DNA from: a virus
Reading direction: 5' to 3' (one strand)
Length of the DNA stretch: 22,030 bases
Virus record (IMG/VR): IMGVR_UViG_3300017742_000147
Coordinates: 1 to 22,030 of that record
A program made the translations under genes and the position numbers. Below the pieces are notes generated by a model. That model was not told where the DNA came from and ran no database searches. It saw only the letters and a program-made list of their open reading frames with translations. Positions 6,083 through 14,981 of the stretch are shown here, piece by piece (position 1 is the first letter of the stretch; each line of letters begins with the position of its first letter).

Positions 6083-6859
6083 GTGGCAGCGGGAATTACT
6101 TCATTTTTATCTCAGGTCAGTCGTCAAGGCGGATTTTCATTTAGTAATAACTTTCTAGTAGAATTTAAAGGTTCTAAGGGAGGTGTTTCTCCAGCTGATT
6201 TCTTCAATCCTGATTTGTTAGAGATTTTTTGTGAAGAAGCACAATTGCCTAACTCAAATACTGCAACTGGAACACAAGTTGGATTAGTCACTGGTCTTGG
6301 TGCTGTAGATTATCCACACACAAGAGTGTTTACAGAATTTTCTCTTACATTTATGTTAGATGCTAACTTAAACATTTTGAAAGCTTTAAATGCTTGGTAT
6401 TATGTTATTATTGGTGGTATGGATAACAATAATATTAAAGAAAAAGGAAATGTATTAAGTCCTAATAGAGTAATGAGAGTCGGTTACAAAGATGACTATG
6501 CGTGTGACATTTATATTACAAAGACAGAGGCTGGAAAAGATTCTTCTACTGAAAGAAAACCAATCACTTATGTTATGGAGAAAGCATGGCCATACCAAAT
6601 TGATGCTATCCCACTTCAATTTGGATCCTCTCAAATAACAAAAGTAACAGCTCAATTCAAGTATGAAAGACATTATACTATAATGAGAGATGTTAGAAAA
6701 GCTCCTCAAATTACTAAAGGTGATGGATTGGGTCCATATCAAAGTGTTACTCCTCTTACAGATGAGCAACGACTAGAGAACTTTAAGAGGGAAGTAGCTG
6801 TGACTGGTAATAAAAATCTTGCGTCAAGAATGGTGAATGCCTTCCCCATGGATCAGTAG
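6083..6859 (+). CDS. 54: Baseplate tail tube initiator gp54
   Basis: A 258-residue protein (T4 gp54 is 320) beginning MAAGITSFLSQVSRQGGFSF, then NNFLVEFKG. It has a tail-tube-like beta fold: FFNPDLLEIFCEEAQLPN, then FSLTFMLDANLNILKALNAW and, near the end, VTAQFKYERHYTI. gp54 joins gp48 on the hub and starts the tail tube and sheath. The only sensible start is GTG at 6083, since no ATG is near and the preceding bases hold a late promoter. An upstream in-frame start would run into the divergent gp4 promoter region. It has its own late promoter and a possible weak hairpin terminator after the stop. Confidence 0.85.
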   Translation: MAAGITSFLSQVSRQGGFSFSNNFLVEFKGSKGGVSPADFFNPDLLEIFCEEAQLPNSNTATGTQVGLVTGLGAVDYPHTRVFTEFSLTFMLDANLNILKALNAWYYVIIGGMDNNNIKEKGNVLSPNRVMRVGYKDDYACDIYITKTEAGKDSSTERKPITYVMEKAWPYQIDAIPLQFGSSQITKVTAQFKYERHYTIMRDVRKAPQITKGDGLGPYQSVTPLTDEQRLENFKREVAVTGNKNLASRMVNAFPMDQ

Positions 6860-6962: not shown

Positions 6963-7676
6963 ATGGCGTTGCCACAAGTTGTTCTCCCAACTTATGAGTT
7001 GGAAATTCCTTCTAATGGGAAAAAATTGAGATATCGTCCTTTTGTTGTAAAGGAAGAAAAGGTACTTCTAATAGCTTTAGAAACACAAGATGAAAAAGAA
7101 ATTGAAAAATCTGTTAAGTCTCTTTTAAAGGGTTGTATTCAGTCAAGAATTAAACTAGAAGATCTAGCAATGTTTGATTTGGAATATATTTTCCTTCAAA
7201 TTCGTGCTGTATCTGTTGGTGAAATTGTACAGATGAATGTAACTTGCAAAGATGACGAAAAAACGCAAGTTAAGTATAATCTGAATCTGACTGAGGTTAA
7301 AGTCAGCAAACCAGAAGGACATGACCCTAAAATCATGCTAAATGATGAACTTGGTGTTATTATGAAGTATCCTTCTTGGACTGAATTCATTAGTGGATCT
7401 ATTATGGGTCAAACTCCATCTACAGATGGTATAGTTGAAATTATTGCTGAATGTATTGATCAGATCTTTGATAAAGAGGATGTATATGACAACTCTACTA
7501 CTACTAAAAAAGAATTTGTTCAATTCGTAGAAGGATTGACCAATACTCAATTTGAAAAAATTCAAAAGTTTTTTGAGTCTATTCCTAGATTAGAGCATAC
7601 ATTTACGGTTACAAATCCAGAGACAGGAGTTGAATCTGAGTTTTTAATCAATGGATTAACTAATTTTTTCGGATAG
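6963..7676 (+). CDS. 26: Baseplate hub subunit gp26 (T4_baseplate family), zero-frame product
   Basis: A 237-residue protein (T4 gp26 is 208) of the T4 baseplate protein family. It starts with the conserved MALPQVVLPTYELEIPSNGK, then LRYRPFVVKEEKVLLIALET, later LNDELGVIMKYPSWTEF and, near the end, IPRLEHTFTV and INGLTNFFG. In T4, gp26 is needed for assembly of the central hub. The two codons before the last sense codon are TTT TTC, forming slippery T-TTT-TTC (7664-7670) six bases before a hairpin. The product may therefore also exist as a longer -1 frame fusion (see the next entry). The start is supported by GGAG eight bases upstream and a perfect late promoter. Confidence 0.88.
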   Translation: MALPQVVLPTYELEIPSNGKKLRYRPFVVKEEKVLLIALETQDEKEIEKSVKSLLKGCIQSRIKLEDLAMFDLEYIFLQIRAVSVGEIVQMNVTCKDDEKTQVKYNLNLTEVKVSKPEGHDPKIMLNDELGVIMKYPSWTEFISGSIMGQTPSTDGIVEIIAECIDQIFDKEDVYDNSTTTKKEFVQFVEGLTNTQFEKIQKFFESIPRLEHTFTVTNPETGVESEFLINGLTNFFG

Positions 7677-7701
7677 CCCTCTTCCATAACACGCTAGAGG
7701 G
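7664..7701 (+). promoter_or_regulatory. Predicted programmed -1 frameshift site
   Basis: The heptamer T TTT TTC (7664-7670) is in correct register with the gp26 frame. A 6-base spacer (7671-7676, containing the zero-frame TAG) precedes a perfect 6-bp stem, CCCTCT (7677-7682) / AGAGGG (7696-7701), with a 13-base loop. The -1 frame has a TAA at 7661-7663 and the zero frame a TAG at 7674-7676, so the shift can only happen at this heptamer. Confidence 0.75.
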
Positions 7702-7858
7702 ATACTACAAAACCAACTTTGCTTTGATGCATCATCATAAATACTCTTTGACTGAGATTGAAAATATGATGCCATGGGAGAGACAGGTATACACTAGTCT
7801 CTTAATGCAACATCTAGATAATGTCAAAAAAGCACAAGAAGCAGCTAAACAACGATAA
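7670..7858 (+). CDS. -1 frame extension of gp26 (tail assembly chaperone 'T'-like segment)
   Basis: After the predicted slip, the -1 frame encodes 62 residues, giving a 298-residue gp26 fusion. The segment contains HNTLEGYYKTNFALMHHHKY, then SLTEIENMMPWERQVYTSLL, and a helical basic tail. The pattern Y-S-L-T-E-I-E-x-M followed by a charged helix resembles the downstream parts of frameshifted tail assembly chaperones (lambda gpG-T class). It has no usable start of its own near its beginning: the first ATG is at 7727, with no ribosome site, and the GAGGG at 7697-7701 has no start at the right distance. The stop TAA shares a base with the next ATG. T4 places gene 51 after gene 26, so this may be its positional counterpart. 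Confidence 0.7.
   Translation, partial: RIALFHNTLEGYYKTNFALMHHHKYSLTEIENMMPWERQVYTSLLMQHLDNVKKAQEAAKQR
7735..7742 (+). promoter_or_regulatory. Possible internal late promoter
   Basis: CATAAATA matches the NATAAATA late motif and lies about 115 bases upstream of the tape-measure-like gene, inside the frameshift extension. It could supply extra transcription of the long downstream gene. With an AT-rich background the motif may also be chance. Confidence 0.3.
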
Positions 7859-10398
7859 TGGCACACGGATTTTTATCATATCAAGATAGCAGAGGTAAAT
7901 CTGGGATTGAGATTGGTCTGGAAAATTTGATTGAAAAGAAATATAAAGAACTAAAAGAACATTTATTAAAAGAACGTAAAAAAACAGACCAGAAAATTGA
8001 GGAAGTTTCTGCAAAAGTAGAAGAACCTGCTGCTTTGAGAGCAGGACAACAACCTTTATTATCGGGTGGAAATCAAAAAGCAGTAGCTGCAGCCCCTTTA
8101 CAAAGAATGCTTGGTGGAACAGCTTTACAAAGAGCATTACCTGCAGGACCATCAGCAATAAATCCTGATGTTCAGGGTGGTGGATTAGCTAGGGGTGGAT
8201 TTAATGGAAAACCACTAAAATCAGAAGGATTTGTTTCTGATAGAATTGTAAATATCGGTGCTACAAATCTTGGTGTAGAAAGAGATATTGGCGGTGACGA
8301 TATGTTCGTCAAACGCATGGAACCTGTTGGTGGAGATAGTGGAGAAGTAGTACAGGCAATTGATAGATTGACCATGGTTACCATGAGTTTAGTTGCTACT
8401 ACAAAACAACAAACACAAGTTCAACAACAGATTGCTCAAACACAGCAACAAGAAGCAGAAAAATTAGGAAGAAAATCAATAGCAGCTGCAGAAGAATTTA
8501 ATCTGGAACGAGGTGGAGACTTCTCTAGCAACGCTGCTTATATGGGTCTTGGAGCAAACGGCATGGCACTGATGGGTGCTGGTGGTGGATCACGTAGAGG
8601 CGGTGGTCCTGGCGTAGGTATAGGTGGTAAGGCAGCTGCAGGTGCATTAGGCAGATCCGTGATGAAAAGAGGTGGTGCTAGAGCTGGAACAAGACTTGGC
8701 ATTGCTCTGGGTGGTAAGATGAGCAAAGGTCTTGGGAAAAACTTAGGAAAGAAATTAGGTGGAAAAGCAATTGGTAAACTTGCTGGTGGAGCAATTGCAA
8801 AGAGTCTAGGAAAGAAAATTCCACTGGTAGGATTAGGATTAGGTGCTGTTTTTGCTGCTCAGAGAGCACTACAGGGAGATTTTATTGGTGCTGGTCTGGA
8901 ATTAGCTTCTGGTGCAGCATCTACTATTCCTGGTGCTGGTACTGCTGCTTCTGTTGGTATTGATGCTGCTCTAGCTGCAAAAGATATGACGATGCCATCT
9001 GGTGCCGATGGTATGGTAACAACTGGTCCTAAATCTGGTTATCTTGCAGAACTTCATGGTACTGAGGTTACTCTCAGTGGTAATAAGTCTAAAGAAATGA
9101 AAGATATCTCTCTTAATATTGGAGAGGGTATTCTTGAAGCACAAAAAAGGAATAAACGTTTATTTGGTCAATTGCAATCGGAGGGACTGCATCAATATTA
9201 TGATAAACAAGGTGGTTGGAATGGATTCTACAAAGGATTAAAAGAAATTCTTGGTGCTCTTACGTTACCTGGAATCGGTAAAATTTTCAGATTTAAAAAC
9301 GACAACGAAGAAGATACATCAACATCAGGCGGCGGCGGTCGCAATAGGAGTAATATGGCAGGTGGTGGTGCTGCTACATTTGATACTATTGTTTCTGGTG
9401 AGGGTGGTGTAAATTCTGTAAACCGTAGCAAGGCTGGTGATACTCCTGGTGGTGCAAAATCTATCTTTGGTAAGAATCTCACTGAGATGACTGTTGGTGA
9501 GATTATGGATGCTCAAGCAAGAGAAGAAGTGTTTGCCGTTGGTAAATATCAAATCATTCCAGACACAATGAAAGAGTTTGTTCAAAATAGTGATGTTACT
9601 AGGGATATGCTATTTACTGAGCAAACTCAAGATATGTTTAAAGATTATGTTATTAATGTGAAAAGACCTTCGGTAGGTAAATATTTAAGAGGAGAAACTA
9701 ATGATCCCACTGAAGCGGGACAGGCACTGGCAAGAGAGTTTGCTTCTGTAGGACTCCAATATGATGAAACTTATAAAGGAAATCGGATGACGAGAGGTCA
9801 AGGTCTATATGATGGTACTGCTGGCAATGCTGCTTCTATCAGTCCCGAAGAAATAATCGAAGCATTAAAAAGAGATAGAGCTGCTGGTTCTGTTCCAAAA
9901 TTAATAGGAGAAAACCCAGATGTTAAACCAGATGGTGCTGACTGGGCAAAATCATTGAATCTGGGGAATGAACCATTTATTGATTTTGGTGATAATAATC
10001 AGTTCCGTGCTATCAAGAAAGATAGTGGTGGATATAAGATCATGAAAAGAGGTTTTCTTGGTATGTTTACACCTATGAATACTGAAGGTAAAAACCTTGG
10101 GTTAAAAAAACAATTAATAGAGGCTGCTAAACCAAAAGAAGTAAGTTCCTTAAATCCAACAACAGATAATGACTCAACCTCACTTACTGCATCTGTTGAT
10201 GATCCTAATGCATTAAATACAGCTTCTACAGATGCTCAATTAACTGCTTCTGCAGGAGCAGGGACTACAATCATCAATAACTACAACACAACAACTGGTG
10301 GTGGTAAATCTTCTGGAGGAGATGATGTAGCATTAGCATCTAGCTATAGTCAGATGGGTCCTAATTTTATGTTTGCTCCAATGCAACTTAGAGCTTAA
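7858..10398 (+). CDS. Tape-measure-like baseplate/tail protein with lysozyme-like domain
   Basis: An 846-residue protein. The N-terminus is a charged coiled coil (about residues 20-60). About residues 165-205 are a Gln-rich coil (KQQTQVQQQIAQTQQQEAEK). Residues 225-390 are Gly/Ala-rich and hydrophobic with repeated GKKLGGKAIGKLAGG-type runs, as in tape measure proteins. Residues about 504-655 resemble a muramidase or transglycosylase: SGEGGVNSVNR with candidate catalytic E515, then FAVGKYQIIPDTM, and LYDGTAGN at the end. The C-terminus has TTIINNYNTTTGGG, a common virion-protein motif. Position between gp26 and the gp27-like hub suits a gp29-type tail length determinant that also degrades peptidoglycan at infection. 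It is longer than T4 gp29 (590). The tape-measure role is inferred; the lysozyme domain is better supported. Confidence 0.75.
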   Translation: MAHGFLSYQDSRGKSGIEIGLENLIEKKYKELKEHLLKERKKTDQKIEEVSAKVEEPAALRAGQQPLLSGGNQKAVAAAPLQRMLGGTALQRALPAGPSAINPDVQGGGLARGGFNGKPLKSEGFVSDRIVNIGATNLGVERDIGGDDMFVKRMEPVGGDSGEVVQAIDRLTMVTMSLVATTKQQTQVQQQIAQTQQQEAEKLGRKSIAAAEEFNLERGGDFSSNAAYMGLGANGMALMGAGGGSRRGGGPGVGIGGKAAAGALGRSVMKRGGARAGTRLGIALGGKMSKGLGKNLGKKLGGKAIGKLAGGAIAKSLGKKIPLVGLGLGAVFAAQRALQGDFIGAGLELASGAASTIPGAGTAASVGIDAALAAKDMTMPSGADGMVTTGPKSGYLAELHGTEVTLSGNKSKEMKDISLNIGEGILEAQKRNKRLFGQLQSEGLHQYYDKQGGWNGFYKGLKEILGALTLPGIGKIFRFKNDNEEDTSTSGGGGRNRSNMAGGGAATFDTIVSGEGGVNSVNRSKAGDTPGGAKSIFGKNLTEMTVGEIMDAQAREEVFAVGKYQIIPDTMKEFVQNSDVTRDMLFTEQTQDMFKDYVINVKRPSVGKYLRGETNDPTEAGQALAREFASVGLQYDETYKGNRMTRGQGLYDGTAGNAASISPEEIIEALKRDRAAGSVPKLIGENPDVKPDGADWAKSLNLGNEPFIDFGDNNQFRAIKKDSGGYKIMKRGFLGMFTPMNTEGKNLGLKKQLIEAAKPKEVSSLNPTTDNDSTSLTASVDDPNALNTASTDAQLTASAGAGTTIINNYNTTTGGGKSSGGDDVALASSYSQMGPNFMFAPMQLRA

Positions 10399-10401
10399 AC
10401 T

Positions 10402-11835
10402 ATGGAAAATTTTTCTTCACCAACTGATTTTGTACTTAGAAGTTTTAGAATTTTTAAGGGAGGAACTAATACAGATATTGAGATCAAAAAATTAGTTGCA
10501 AATTTTGAATATGTTGAGTCTATTTTAAGTCCTTTTATAGTAGCTGGTGCTACTATAGTTGATAGTGCTGGTTTACTTGGATCTCTTCCTATTAAAGGTG
10601 GAGAAAGGGTAGTTATTGAAATGTTGACAAATATTAGTGATGTTCCAATTCGATATGATATGGTTATTTGGAGAGTCTCTGATCGTTATGCTCAACAACA
10701 GAAACAAGTATATAAGATTGGTTTAATATCTCCTGAAGCATTGGAGAATGAAATTACAAGAGTTAATGTTGTAATGGAAGGTAATCCTGAGGGGATTATT
10801 AAAAAGATGATAAAACAACCAGAATATATTGGTAGTCAAAAAGAGTTTTTCTCAGAACCTTCTTTATTTGAAAACAAAATAATTCCTAATAATAAAAGAC
10901 CATTTGATCTTATTACACAACTAGCAGTTAAGAGTATTTCTCCTAAAGCTAAGTTTGAAACTAATAATACATCAAATAAGAATAAATCAGAACAACAAAT
11001 TAAAGGCAGTGGTGGATTTTTCTTTTGGGAAACACGTAGAGGATATAATTTCTTTGCAGTTGATTCTTTATGTGCTGATGAGAAAAGTCCTCTAAAATCT
11101 GATAGATTACAAGTGAAAGCATGGGGTGATGGACCAGATGAACCTTATACGGAGAGATTGGGAAATATTGGAGATGGTGCGGATGAAAGATTTACAATTA
11201 AAAAATCTATCTTTGATTCTGAGGTTGATACTCTTACATCGTTAAGAGTGGGAAAATATTCTTCTTTGATGGTATTCTTCAATCATTCAACAGGGCAATA
11301 CGAAGAGTATGTCTATAAAATTAAAGATAGTTATGATAACATGTCACATCTTGGAGGACAAGATTCTCTTTCTTTAATTCCTGTAAAAGATGTAGAATTA
11401 TCTGATTATCCCAGTAGAATTATGTCAGTATACTTAGATCATGAATCTTGGTCTAATGAACTTGAACCTGCTTCACCAGAACCAGGAGATAGATCTAAAT
11501 CTCCAACAAAATTTGCTGATTGGCAAAAATATTATATGGCACAATCCATAGCAAGGTATAGATTACTTACAAATCAGAAGTGTAGTATCGTAATACCTGG
11601 AAATGCTGAAATATGTGCAGGAGACAAAATTAATGTTAGACTAGTCAGTAAGCTACCAACTTCATTAGGAAAGGACGAACCTTTCGACTTGGAGAGTAGC
11701 GGACAATACTTGATTCAAGAAGTAACACATGCTTTTGATCCTTTATCTGGATCAAATGGTACATTTTACACTACATTGCGCTTGATGAGAGACTCTTATG
11801 GACAAAAGGATAAAGTGTCCACACATAGTAAATAA
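10402..11835 (+). CDS. 27: Baseplate hub protein, gp27-like
   Basis: A 477-residue protein (T4 gp27 is 391). The N-terminal half shows the tube-like hub pattern: IEIKKLVANFEYVESILSPF, then GERVVIEMLTNISDVP and, later, YKIGLISPEALENEITRVN, a conserved region of gp27-type hub proteins. The C-terminus has SGQYLIQEVTHAFDPLSG and YTTLRLMRDSYGQ, a closing barrel also typical of gp27/gpD-type hubs. Such hubs form a trimeric ring connecting the spike to the tail tube. It lies three bases after the previous gene with no visible ribosome site, so it is likely expressed by coupling. Similarity to T4 gp27 is at the level of fold pattern and position rather than obvious identity. Confidence 0.75.
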   Translation: MENFSSPTDFVLRSFRIFKGGTNTDIEIKKLVANFEYVESILSPFIVAGATIVDSAGLLGSLPIKGGERVVIEMLTNISDVPIRYDMVIWRVSDRYAQQQKQVYKIGLISPEALENEITRVNVVMEGNPEGIIKKMIKQPEYIGSQKEFFSEPSLFENKIIPNNKRPFDLITQLAVKSISPKAKFETNNTSNKNKSEQQIKGSGGFFFWETRRGYNFFAVDSLCADEKSPLKSDRLQVKAWGDGPDEPYTERLGNIGDGADERFTIKKSIFDSEVDTLTSLRVGKYSSLMVFFNHSTGQYEEYVYKIKDSYDNMSHLGGQDSLSLIPVKDVELSDYPSRIMSVYLDHESWSNELEPASPEPGDRSKSPTKFADWQKYYMAQSIARYRLLTNQKCSIVIPGNAEICAGDKINVRLVSKLPTSLGKDEPFDLESSGQYLIQEVTHAFDPLSGSNGTFYTTLRLMRDSYGQKDKVSTHSK

Positions 11836-11859: not shown

Positions 11860-12087
11860 ATGGAAAGCATCGAAAAGCATATCGAAAAGGACAAAGAAAT
11901 CCTTGACAATCCTATGACCTCACCACATCAACGTCGTCATGTTGAGGGTGAGTTGCACGAATTGGAAGACTATGTAGAGCATCACAAGAAAGAGATTGAA
12001 GCAGGTGATCATCATGATCCAACACCTTTGGAACTATTTTGTGACTCAAATCCATCAGAACCTGAATGTTTAGTATATGAAGATTGA
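11860..12087 (+). CDS. Small acidic His-rich protein in hub operon
   Basis: A 75-residue soluble protein, rich in His, Glu and Asp: ESIEKHIEKDKEILDN, then HQRRHVEGELHELEDYVEHH and the tail SNPSEPECLVYED. The central part is a likely helical hairpin or coiled coil. AAGGAAG (11842-11848) lies upstream as a ribosome site. It is placed between the gp27-like hub and the OB-fold spike protein, so a chaperone or minor baseplate role is possible, but that is inference from position only. I do not recognise a named family. Confidence 0.65.
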   Translation: MESIEKHIEKDKEILDNPMTSPHQRRHVEGELHELEDYVEHHKKEIEAGDHHDPTPLELFCDSNPSEPECLVYED

Positions 12088-12089
12088 AT

Positions 12090-14981
12090 ATGGATGACTC
12101 ATTATCACGGTTAGTACCTATACACCAAATTGGATCCGATGGATACGCTTGGTGGATTGGACAAGTAGAAGGAACTGTAGATGACGATAAAAACAATAAA
12201 GGTGGATATCGTTATAAGGTAAGAATTGTAGGAGATCATCCTGGTAATAAGGATATTCTTCCTACTGCTGCTTTGCCATGGGCAACCGTTGTGATGCCAG
12301 TTACAACACCATTCATGCCAGGTAATGTTGGTGGTGCATGTTCTCAGTTAATTGAAGGTTGTTGGGTAACTGGATTTTATGTAGACGCAGATAAACAGAA
12401 ACCTATTATTATAGGTTCTATTGGTCAAACACCTGCAGCTACAAAGATTGTTAATACACCAGGACCAAAAAGAAAAGCATATGTTACAGGAGAGAGTTAT
12501 AAATCACAAGTTGACCCATATAAAGATGGTGCAGAAGAAGTAACAGAATCAGGTACTACTGAAACATCAGGTGTTTCTGAAAAGGGTGCTAGAACAGGTT
12601 CGGGTTTATCTACAGGAAGAGAAGTTGAGGATGAAAATGGTGAAAAGAGACAAGACATTCCTGTACCACCAGCAGCAACAGAAAGATTAAAAAAAGAAGA
12701 GTGGTGTCAAAGTGTTGCTGAAAAATGCAAAGACCAAGATTTAAAAACACAGATGAACTCTATTGTTGGTCAGATGTTATCTGATATACAGAATAACAAT
12801 GGCAACATTGGAGATTTTTATGTTAATAAAGTTAGTGGTGGTGTAAACAGTGCAATCTCTAAGGCAAGAACATCTATTAACAAAGCACAGCGTGTTGTTA
12901 CTGAGTTCTTAGCAAGGATTAAAGGTTATATTAAACAACAATTACAGGAGGCTGTAGACAACTTAGTAAAGGCATTATTAAGACCAGATGAATCTGGTAA
13001 TGCTCTAACTCCTGTAACAGAATTCTTTAACAATGCTTTGAAAGACCTTGGTTGTCAAATGGCAGACTTAGGTGAACGTTTGATGTCATGGTTGACAAAT
13101 GTATTGATGAGTTACGTCAACAAAGCATATCGTGCTGCTATTTGTCATGTAGATGAGTTTGTAAATGGAATCATCTCTAAGATTAATCAGTTGATTACTG
13201 AAATACTTGGTAAAATATTAGGACCTCTACAAGATATTCTTGGTGCTATTGCTGAACCACTTAATATGATCGGTCAAGCTATCAATTTTGTTTTAAAACT
13301 TCTTGGTATTTCTTGTTCTGGTCCTGATCAAACATGTAATAAGTACAAGAAAGCATGTACTAATGGAGAAGAAGAAGGGAAAAAAGATGATGAAGATTTC
13401 TTGGATAATCTTTTGAGTAGTATCGATAATTTATTTGGAGATACTCCTGGTGATTATACACAGTATGTTTGTGAAGAAGCATATACTGGAAATCCATTAA
13501 CACTTACTACTATTGGATTTACTGGAGGTGTTCCTTTACCATACACACCAAAAGGTCCTGATGACTTAGCTACAAAGAGACCAAAAATTGCATATAATAT
13601 TCAAGATATTAAAGTAACTAGAGGTGATACTGCTGTATTCACAATTATTCGTTCTGGATACCTAGAATCTGCTTCCTCTGTTACATTTAAAACTCTGGAT
13701 GGACAAGGTACAGCAACACCTGTAGAGGATTACTTATCAGCAAATACAATTGTTGGTTTTCAACCAAAAGAAACTTCAAAAACTGTTGAGATTAGGACGT
13801 TTGGAGATCCACTATCTGATAGATCAATAGAAGAATTTTTTGTAAAAATTAAACAAAATAGTCCGATTGATAGTAGCGGAATTAAATCATTTTTTGTAAG
13901 AAATGTTGCACAGTGTGAGATTTCACCACAACCACTTAAAGAAGATTATCCTCCATACAATCCACCATCAGAAAATCCAATTGATATTGATGTTCCTGAG
14001 GATCCTTTGACTCCTCCTGATGATGATGGAGATGGTACGCCAGATGATCCTATCGACGATCCATCTAACACCACACCTTCTTATGAAGTTGTAGCTAACA
14101 GATCTATTTGTCCAGAAGATGAATTTATTATCTATTCAATTACTACTAATAATGTAGATAATGGAACTATCTTATTTTACAACTTATTCGGTCAAGGTAT
14201 TACATCAGATGATATCATTAATGGTTCTCTAACTGGATCATTTGTTATTAACAGTGGTAAAGCACAAGTAACTATTGGTATTGCAGAAGATGGTGTAGTA
14301 GAAGAAGCAGAAAATCTAACCTTTGCTATTACAGGTAAAGGAGCTACTGCAGATGTTTTGATTGTATCAGGAAGAGATTTAAATCTTCCTGATTTTGACG
14401 AAGGTGTTGGTGATTCTACAGAAATTGTATTTGATGACTTTAGACCACCTGCAATTAATATTCCTGATGTAATTACAGATGATAATGGTGGTATTATCGA
14501 AATTCCTGTGGATAATCCTGGCGATCCATGGGCAGAACCACCATTCGTATTCGTTGGTGGAGAAGGAGTTGGTGCAACTGCAACGGCATTATTAGATGAC
14601 AATGGATTCTTAACTGAAATTCGTGTCCTCTCACCAGGATTTGGTTATAAGAAAAATCGCTCTGGTGATAATGACAAGAGATGTGTCATTGATACATTTA
14701 CCGCTACTAGATTTGGAATTGGATATAAAACTAAACCAGAGATTTTTATTAATGACGAACCAGGATTAGCAGAAGCTATCATTAATGATGATGGATTTTT
14801 AATTGGTGCTAGAATTCTTAATAGAACAAAAACTTTTGAAGGATTTCCTGAGGTCAAAGTCGTTGGTGGTGGTGGATATGGAGGACAATTGTTACCTTCA
14901 TTATTATGTCTAGATACAGATGGACTTTCCAAGATTGGTTCTACCAAAATTGGTACAGGTCGTTATGTTGATTGTCCTTAG
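12090..14981 (+). CDS. 5: gp5-like central spike protein: OB fold, helical region and Calx-beta domains
   Basis: A 963-residue modular protein. Residues about 15-115 form a gp5/gpV-type OB fold (AWWIGQVEGTVDD, then YRYKVRIVGDHPG and ALPWATVVMPVT). Residues about 200-465 are long amphipathic helices containing nearly all the cysteines. Residues about 503-603 form a Calx-beta domain (FTIIRSGYLESASSVTF, then QGTATPVEDY, VGFQPKETSKTVEI). Around residue 645 is a calcium-binding-like DDDGDGTPDD. A second Calx-beta-like unit follows (about 663-760). The C-terminus (about 817-937) has two GxGY units (SPGFGYKKN, FGIGYKTKPEIFIND). No T4-type lysozyme domain and no beta-helix are present; these appear in neighbouring genes. 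ATG 12090 is preferred over the TTG at 12084 that overlaps the previous gene. Confidence 0.75.
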   Translation: MDDSLSRLVPIHQIGSDGYAWWIGQVEGTVDDDKNNKGGYRYKVRIVGDHPGNKDILPTAALPWATVVMPVTTPFMPGNVGGACSQLIEGCWVTGFYVDADKQKPIIIGSIGQTPAATKIVNTPGPKRKAYVTGESYKSQVDPYKDGAEEVTESGTTETSGVSEKGARTGSGLSTGREVEDENGEKRQDIPVPPAATERLKKEEWCQSVAEKCKDQDLKTQMNSIVGQMLSDIQNNNGNIGDFYVNKVSGGVNSAISKARTSINKAQRVVTEFLARIKGYIKQQLQEAVDNLVKALLRPDESGNALTPVTEFFNNALKDLGCQMADLGERLMSWLTNVLMSYVNKAYRAAICHVDEFVNGIISKINQLITEILGKILGPLQDILGAIAEPLNMIGQAINFVLKLLGISCSGPDQTCNKYKKACTNGEEEGKKDDEDFLDNLLSSIDNLFGDTPGDYTQYVCEEAYTGNPLTLTTIGFTGGVPLPYTPKGPDDLATKRPKIAYNIQDIKVTRGDTAVFTIIRSGYLESASSVTFKTLDGQGTATPVEDYLSANTIVGFQPKETSKTVEIRTFGDPLSDRSIEEFFVKIKQNSPIDSSGIKSFFVRNVAQCEISPQPLKEDYPPYNPPSENPIDIDVPEDPLTPPDDDGDGTPDDPIDDPSNTTPSYEVVANRSICPEDEFIIYSITTNNVDNGTILFYNLFGQGITSDDIINGSLTGSFVINSGKAQVTIGIAEDGVVEEAENLTFAITGKGATADVLIVSGRDLNLPDFDEGVGDSTEIVFDDFRPPAINIPDVITDDNGGIIEIPVDNPGDPWAEPPFVFVGGEGVGATATALLDDNGFLTEIRVLSPGFGYKKNRSGDNDKRCVIDTFTATRFGIGYKTKPEIFINDEPGLAEAIINDDGFLIGARILNRTKTFEGFPEVKVVGGGGYGGQLLPSLLCLDTDGLSKIGSTKIGTGRYVDCP

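Follow-up and report, generated by a model that had tools for sequence, protein, structure and literature searches.

Does the gp26-like gene of a T4-like cyanophage encode a single protein, or is it read in two ways, the second of which would carry translation through the stop codon into another frame? The window, i.e. the whole stretch of DNA that was analysed, is a 22,030-base virus record of T4-like cyanophage type, among whose genes are those for gp26, a gp5-type spike, a gp32-like protein and CP12. Its gp26-like gene (6963..7676, plus strand) encodes 237 aa, matches Pfam family PF12322 (T4_baseplate, E 2.1e-70) and phrog_150 (E 2.4e-76), and ends with TTT TTC GGA TAG, the 0-frame stop TAG occupying 7674-7676. 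The slippery heptamer T_TTT_TTC (7664..7670, plus strand) lies in the 0-frame register (codons TTT 7665-7667 and TTC 7668-7670). It is followed by the 6-nt spacer GGATAG (7671..7676, plus strand), formed by the last Gly codon and the stop, and by a hairpin (7677..7701, plus strand; CCCTCT 7677-7682 paired with AGAGGG 7696-7701; -7.7 kcal/mol), which is a candidate 3' stimulator. The -1 frame, closed upstream by TAA at 7661-7663, is open from 7664 to 7855 and ends with TAA at 7856-7858. A -1 slip on the heptamer would be read as TTT TTT CGG and would add 62 residues after Phe-Phe, giving a fusion of gp26 and its extension of 298 aa, whose stop overlaps the ATG of the next gene (TAATG, the first base of the ATG being 7858). 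Both stops, the register of the heptamer, the spacer, the 6-bp stem and the 62 residues had been recognized in an earlier, sequence-only reading of this DNA, and all proved correct on direct reading.

In our view this locus very probably encodes two forms of a tail-assembly chaperone by means of a -1 slip on T_TTT_TTC. In the scheme that we infer for the cell, the majority of ribosomes would halt at the TAG (7674) and release gp26 as the short form (TAC-N, 237 aa), while a minority would slip back by one base on the heptamer, exchanging Phe-Phe for Phe-Phe, pass the TAG and produce a long form (TAC-NC, 298 aa) whose C-terminal domain is helical. The downstream hairpin would raise the rate of slippage in many relatives, and an upstream SD-like GAGG would probably do so as well. 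By analogy with lambda gpG/gpGT, both forms would cover the tape measure, which is probably the 846-aa protein encoded by the following gene, and bring tail-tube subunits to it.

Conservation of the heptamer and of the -1 frame

Homologues of gp26 were gathered from viral contigs and annotated phages (in the contig search a Vibrio query retrieved no contigs), and the 349 with a readable 3' end were counted. An in-register T_TTT_TTN together with an open -1 frame was found in 333 of them, as TTTTTTC (246), TTTTTTT (58), TTTTTTA (28) or TTTTTTG (1). Since the homologues are related and these counts are not independent, clusters provide a fairer measure: the heptamer is present in 54 of 55 clusters formed at 70% identity and in 21 of 22 formed at 50% identity. 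Elsewhere in gp26 of 174 representatives the same motif occurs at 11 of 40,536 other codon positions and in 2 of 201 other Phe-Phe pairs; the heptamer stands at the end of gp26 far more often than expected by chance. Besides cyanophages, this arrangement is shared by phages of Methylophilales, Pseudomonas, Vibrio, Aeromonas, Stenotrophomonas, Rhizobium (where the heptamer is TTTTTTG) and Nitratidesulfovibrio, and all short extensions in the set were ended by contig ends. An alignment across T4-like cyanophages, which the sequence-only reading had proposed as a check, reveals conservation of the heptamer and of the open -1 frame both there and well beyond this group.

The position of the heptamer is constant, and that of the 0-frame stop varies from 2 to 10 codons away from it. 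In one lineage (L296, L311, L323, L326 and their relatives) the distance from the first base of the heptamer to this stop is 10 codons, as against 2-4, so that the short and long forms differ there by more than the extension.

The -1 frame was analysed in the 174 representatives, chosen at 90% identity. Downstream of the heptamer it is free of stops for 50 codons; upstream, stops are frequent within the 11 codons before the heptamer (at codon -5 in 71/174 and at codon -9 in 115/174), and residue conservation in this frame begins at the heptamer, well ahead of the ATG usually selected by annotators. Sequence comparison shows both the heptamer and the constraint on the -1 frame.

Annotators have commonly treated the extension as a separate small gene, gp51, with its own internal start (e.g. 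in S-RSM4, S-RIM8 and S-PM2), and an ATG is indeed often found at extension codon 22. The window contains such an in-frame ATG at 7727..7729 (plus strand), which matches the S-RSM4 codon and serves as the gp51 start in some annotations, but is probably not a real start. Met occupies codon 22 in only 123 of 174 representatives, a start codon preceded by an SD-like 4-mer occurs among the first 25 extension codons in 4 of 170, and in 1 of 170 the -1 frame has a start codon further upstream, all of which makes it unlikely that the extension is an independently started gene. Moreover, the conserved residues FFRIALxH...LExYY are located upstream of the internal ATG in the same frame, the annotated starts differ between phages, and outside the Ackermannviridae no site lacks the heptamer. 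We therefore consider an internal start very improbable. The earlier statement that the extension has no usable start of its own holds insofar as a search of the homologues for a conserved ATG and ribosome site of the -1 ORF found no conserved start, but it has to be qualified, since the ATG at 7727-7729 does exist. The reading of the locus as a -1 frameshift is supported by this absence of a conserved start and by the conservation of both the heptamer and the -1 frame.

In several phage records, e.g. those of S-WAM2 (L359) and Sf-CH1b (L360), the extension is left unannotated, and a joined (frameshift) feature covering gp26 and the extension was seen in none of the phage records opened.

Homology to T4 gp51 and the neighbouring genes

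The extension (TAC-C; -1 frame, 7664..7858, plus strand) matches phrog_634 (E 8.7e-28), a family named 'baseplate hub assembly catalyst', and also the C-terminus of phrog_150 (E 5.1e-07). T4 gp51 aligns with positions 13-280 of the 282 of phrog_150 (E 2.6e-84) and also matches phrog_634, whereas T4 gp26 aligns with positions 14-235 only. Using hhalign, residues 11-282 of the fusion were aligned collinearly with residues 5-245 of T4 gp51 (Prob 97.1, E 5.2e-11), and this profile alignment places a 40-residue stretch opposite FFRIALFHNTLEGYYKTNFALMHHHKYSLTEIENMMPWERQ. Since gp51 spans the whole of phrog_150 and of the fusion, and gp26 only the short part, T4 gp51 corresponds to the long form and T4 gp26 to the short form. 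The extension had previously been thought to stand where T4 has gene 51; gp51 does cover the extension, but the T4 protein represents the entire long form. The 3' end of T4 gp26 reads GAG TTC TTT GAG TTA CTA TAA, in which Phe-Phe is retained and the T run is gone, as would be expected if T4 uses two genes. At the level of sequence, these results support the assignment of the fusion as the TAC-NC long form, and of gp26 as the TAC-N short form, of a tail-assembly chaperone.

The predicted model of gp26 has a pLDDT of 89, and that of the extension, an all-helical 64-mer, a pLDDT of 84. The best viral fold matches of gp26 were gp26-family proteins, two of them labelled gp51-like; no significant match for gp26 was found in the PDB, where the HK97 tail-assembly chaperone 2ob9 ranked second and third at a non-significant E of 0.8-1.3. 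The extension yielded neither a significant fold match nor a Pfam match, and the gpT-like structure that the sequence-only reading had suggested searching for was not obtained. Comparison of the gp26 and extension profiles with the sequences of solved structures gave chance matches only.

The genes are arranged in the order tube-type protein, gp26 with its extension, 846-aa protein, hub-type tail protein, CP12 and gp5 spike. The tail tube-type protein upstream (6083..6859, plus strand) matches PF23849 (Phage_TTP_2, E 4.5e-79) and phrog_45. Its position and the gene order suggest that the 846-aa protein (7858..10398, plus strand; Gly 15%, Ala 11%) is probably the tape measure and the client of the chaperone; it matches only unnamed or 'endolysin' phrogs in PHROGs, and no named tape-measure family in Pfam or PHROGs. 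It is followed by a tail protein in the hub position (10402..11835, plus strand; phrog_350, E 6.4e-121) and by a gp5-type spike protein (12084..14981, plus strand; PF06714 Gp5_OB, E 2.6e-07; phrog_1922), with a CP12-domain host-metabolism gene between them (11860-12087; PF02672, E 2e-11). The interpretation of gp26 as a chaperone is supported by this gene order, by the alignment of gp51 with the fusion and, in the parts available, by published work on T4-like chaperones (PMC10885494, PMC12846349).

Candidate stimulators and the Ackermannviridae junction

For the stem test, the 54 nt downstream of the heptamer were folded and compared with synonymous shuffles of the -1 frame. The mean z over 54 clusters was -1.64 +/- 0.21, with 43% of them below p = 0.05, and control stretches gave z of -0.17 to -0.80. 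Strong stems were detected in some lineages (z -5.8 in L250, -4.0 in L087), and the pairing register varies, from CCCTCT/AGAGGG in the window to, for example, ACTCTTCC/GGAAGGGT in the sister lineage L073. As to conservation of the stem, another check proposed on the basis of the sequence, the family as a whole is significant, but the hairpin of the window reaches only a marginal value (z = -1.88, p = 0.053), and roughly half of the lineages have a weak stem or none.

A conserved Glu-Gly pair of gp26, whose codons lie some 9-14 nt ahead of the heptamer, gives rise in most homologues to the sequence GAGGG, which resembles the SD-like stimulator of E. coli dnaX in kind and spacing. The Glu codon of this pair is GAG in 77 of 110 cases, compared with a background of 27.5%, and the same bias is observed at the 70% level (23/36 against 29.5%, p 2e-5, a p-value that, like the others, ignores relatedness). 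The window is devoid of this SD-like element and has AATGGA in the place of GAGGG.

These features also bear on the idea that it is the RNA polymerase that slips on the T run, generating a mixed mRNA population, which we judge less probable still than an internal start. Six Ts are short for transcriptional slippage, for which longer runs are usual, and the register of the heptamer, its place just before the stop, the downstream stems and the upstream SD-like bias all fit the ribosome better. In its favour, a run of 6-7 T is present, and transcriptional slippage is a known route of recoding (PMC5009743).

The 16 homologues without T_TTT_TTN form one group, the Kuttervirus-like Ackermannviridae, and outside the Ackermannviridae the heptamer is universal. 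In the Kuttervirus-like sequences (L089, L175-L189) and in a Limestonevirus (L355), where the heptamer is absent, a near-invariant junction, GA[AG]ATTTTCATTTAAT[GT]TTTGAAA, is kept. In these genes the C-terminal domain continues in the -1 frame; Limestonevirus has the stop-start overlap TAATG, and Kuttervirus has TAATT. For Kuttervirus one could conceive of the ribosome hopping across UA from one AUU to the next, but this was abandoned as an explanation for the whole group, since the landing site in Limestonevirus is AUG. The stop-start overlap of the -1 ORF in Limestonevirus would suit a model in which ribosomes terminate and then re-initiate at the TAG or close to it, releasing the extension as a free polypeptide, but this explanation is just as improbable as polymerase slippage, since no start codon overlaps the TAG in the window and the model has no need of the heptamer, whose T run is universal outside the Ackermannviridae.

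Returning to ribosomal frameshifting, it is possible, and to us nearly an even call, that most of the family uses a three-part signal, composed of an SD-like GAG-GG about 9 nt upstream, T_TTT_TTN and a hairpin whose register varies between lineages. Lineages would then trade these parts, the window having lost the SD-like element, and some would no longer depend on slippage at all, T4 having a second gene instead and the Ackermannviridae a different junction with the TAAT[GT] overlap.

Known chaperone systems and the evolution of two forms

The heptamer of lambda is G_GGA_AAG, unlike the T_TTT_TTN described here, and sequence homology with lambda gpG/gpGT is undetectable. What lambda has in common with the scheme proposed here is a short and a long chaperone, made by a -1 slip shortly ahead of the short form's stop codon and encoded upstream of the tape-measure gene (PMC5009743), which in the window is a probable one. 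The chaperone of Pakpunavirus Adele and the Vandenendeviridae resembles the present one in its layout: a conserved T-rich -1 site (GTTTTT) ends TAC-N, the -1 frame is open in every genome and the downstream gene was formerly 'hypothetical', although different virus families are involved (PMC12846349). In T4, as here, gp26 is the short form and gp51 matches the whole fusion, but they are encoded by two separate, divergently placed genes, and the T run is absent.

The abstract of the 2022 study by Vladimirov and colleagues reportedly describes frameshifting as a conserved trait of several T4-like groups and names genes 26 and 51 as those used by T4. As far as the available parts of two citing papers go, some T4-like phages do without frameshifting and have a short gene and a long gene instead (PMC10885494, citing Vladimirov, Gautam and Davidson 2022), and poly-T -1 frameshift signals occur in the TAC-N genes of T4-like phages (PMC12846349, citing Vladimirov et al. 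2022). The system of Vladimirov et al. 2022, as conveyed by these papers, also assigns gp26 to TAC-N and includes a long form extended at the C-terminus, and its short/long assignment of T4 gp26 and gp51 was independently reproduced by our profile alignment. Both the mechanism and the gene assignment have thus been published, and the window represents a further member of this known kind. The conservation count, the SD-like bias, the stem test and the Ackermannviridae exception come from the present analysis. In the literature examined, which includes Vladimirov et al. 2022 through citing papers, we did not find the SD-like GAG-GG bias, the lineage-specific stems or the Ackermannviridae exception, and a search by title and abstract (tail assembly chaperone, ribosomal frameshift) found no paper on the cyanophage site.

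The observation is real and its reading as a frameshifted chaperone well supported, and the mechanism has already been described for other tailed viruses, T4-like phages included. In many genomes of cyanophages and marine T4-like phages, the extension either is recorded as a gene of its own (gp51, 'baseplate hub assembly catalyst') or as a hypothetical protein, or is not annotated at all. The evidence identifies it instead as the C-terminal portion of a protein made by frameshifting, so that hundreds of records contain incorrect or truncated gene counts, start sites and protein families (phrog_634). The set of homologues assembled here also opens to testing the question of how a single phage family moves between frameshifting, gene duplication and another type of junction to obtain the same two chaperone forms.
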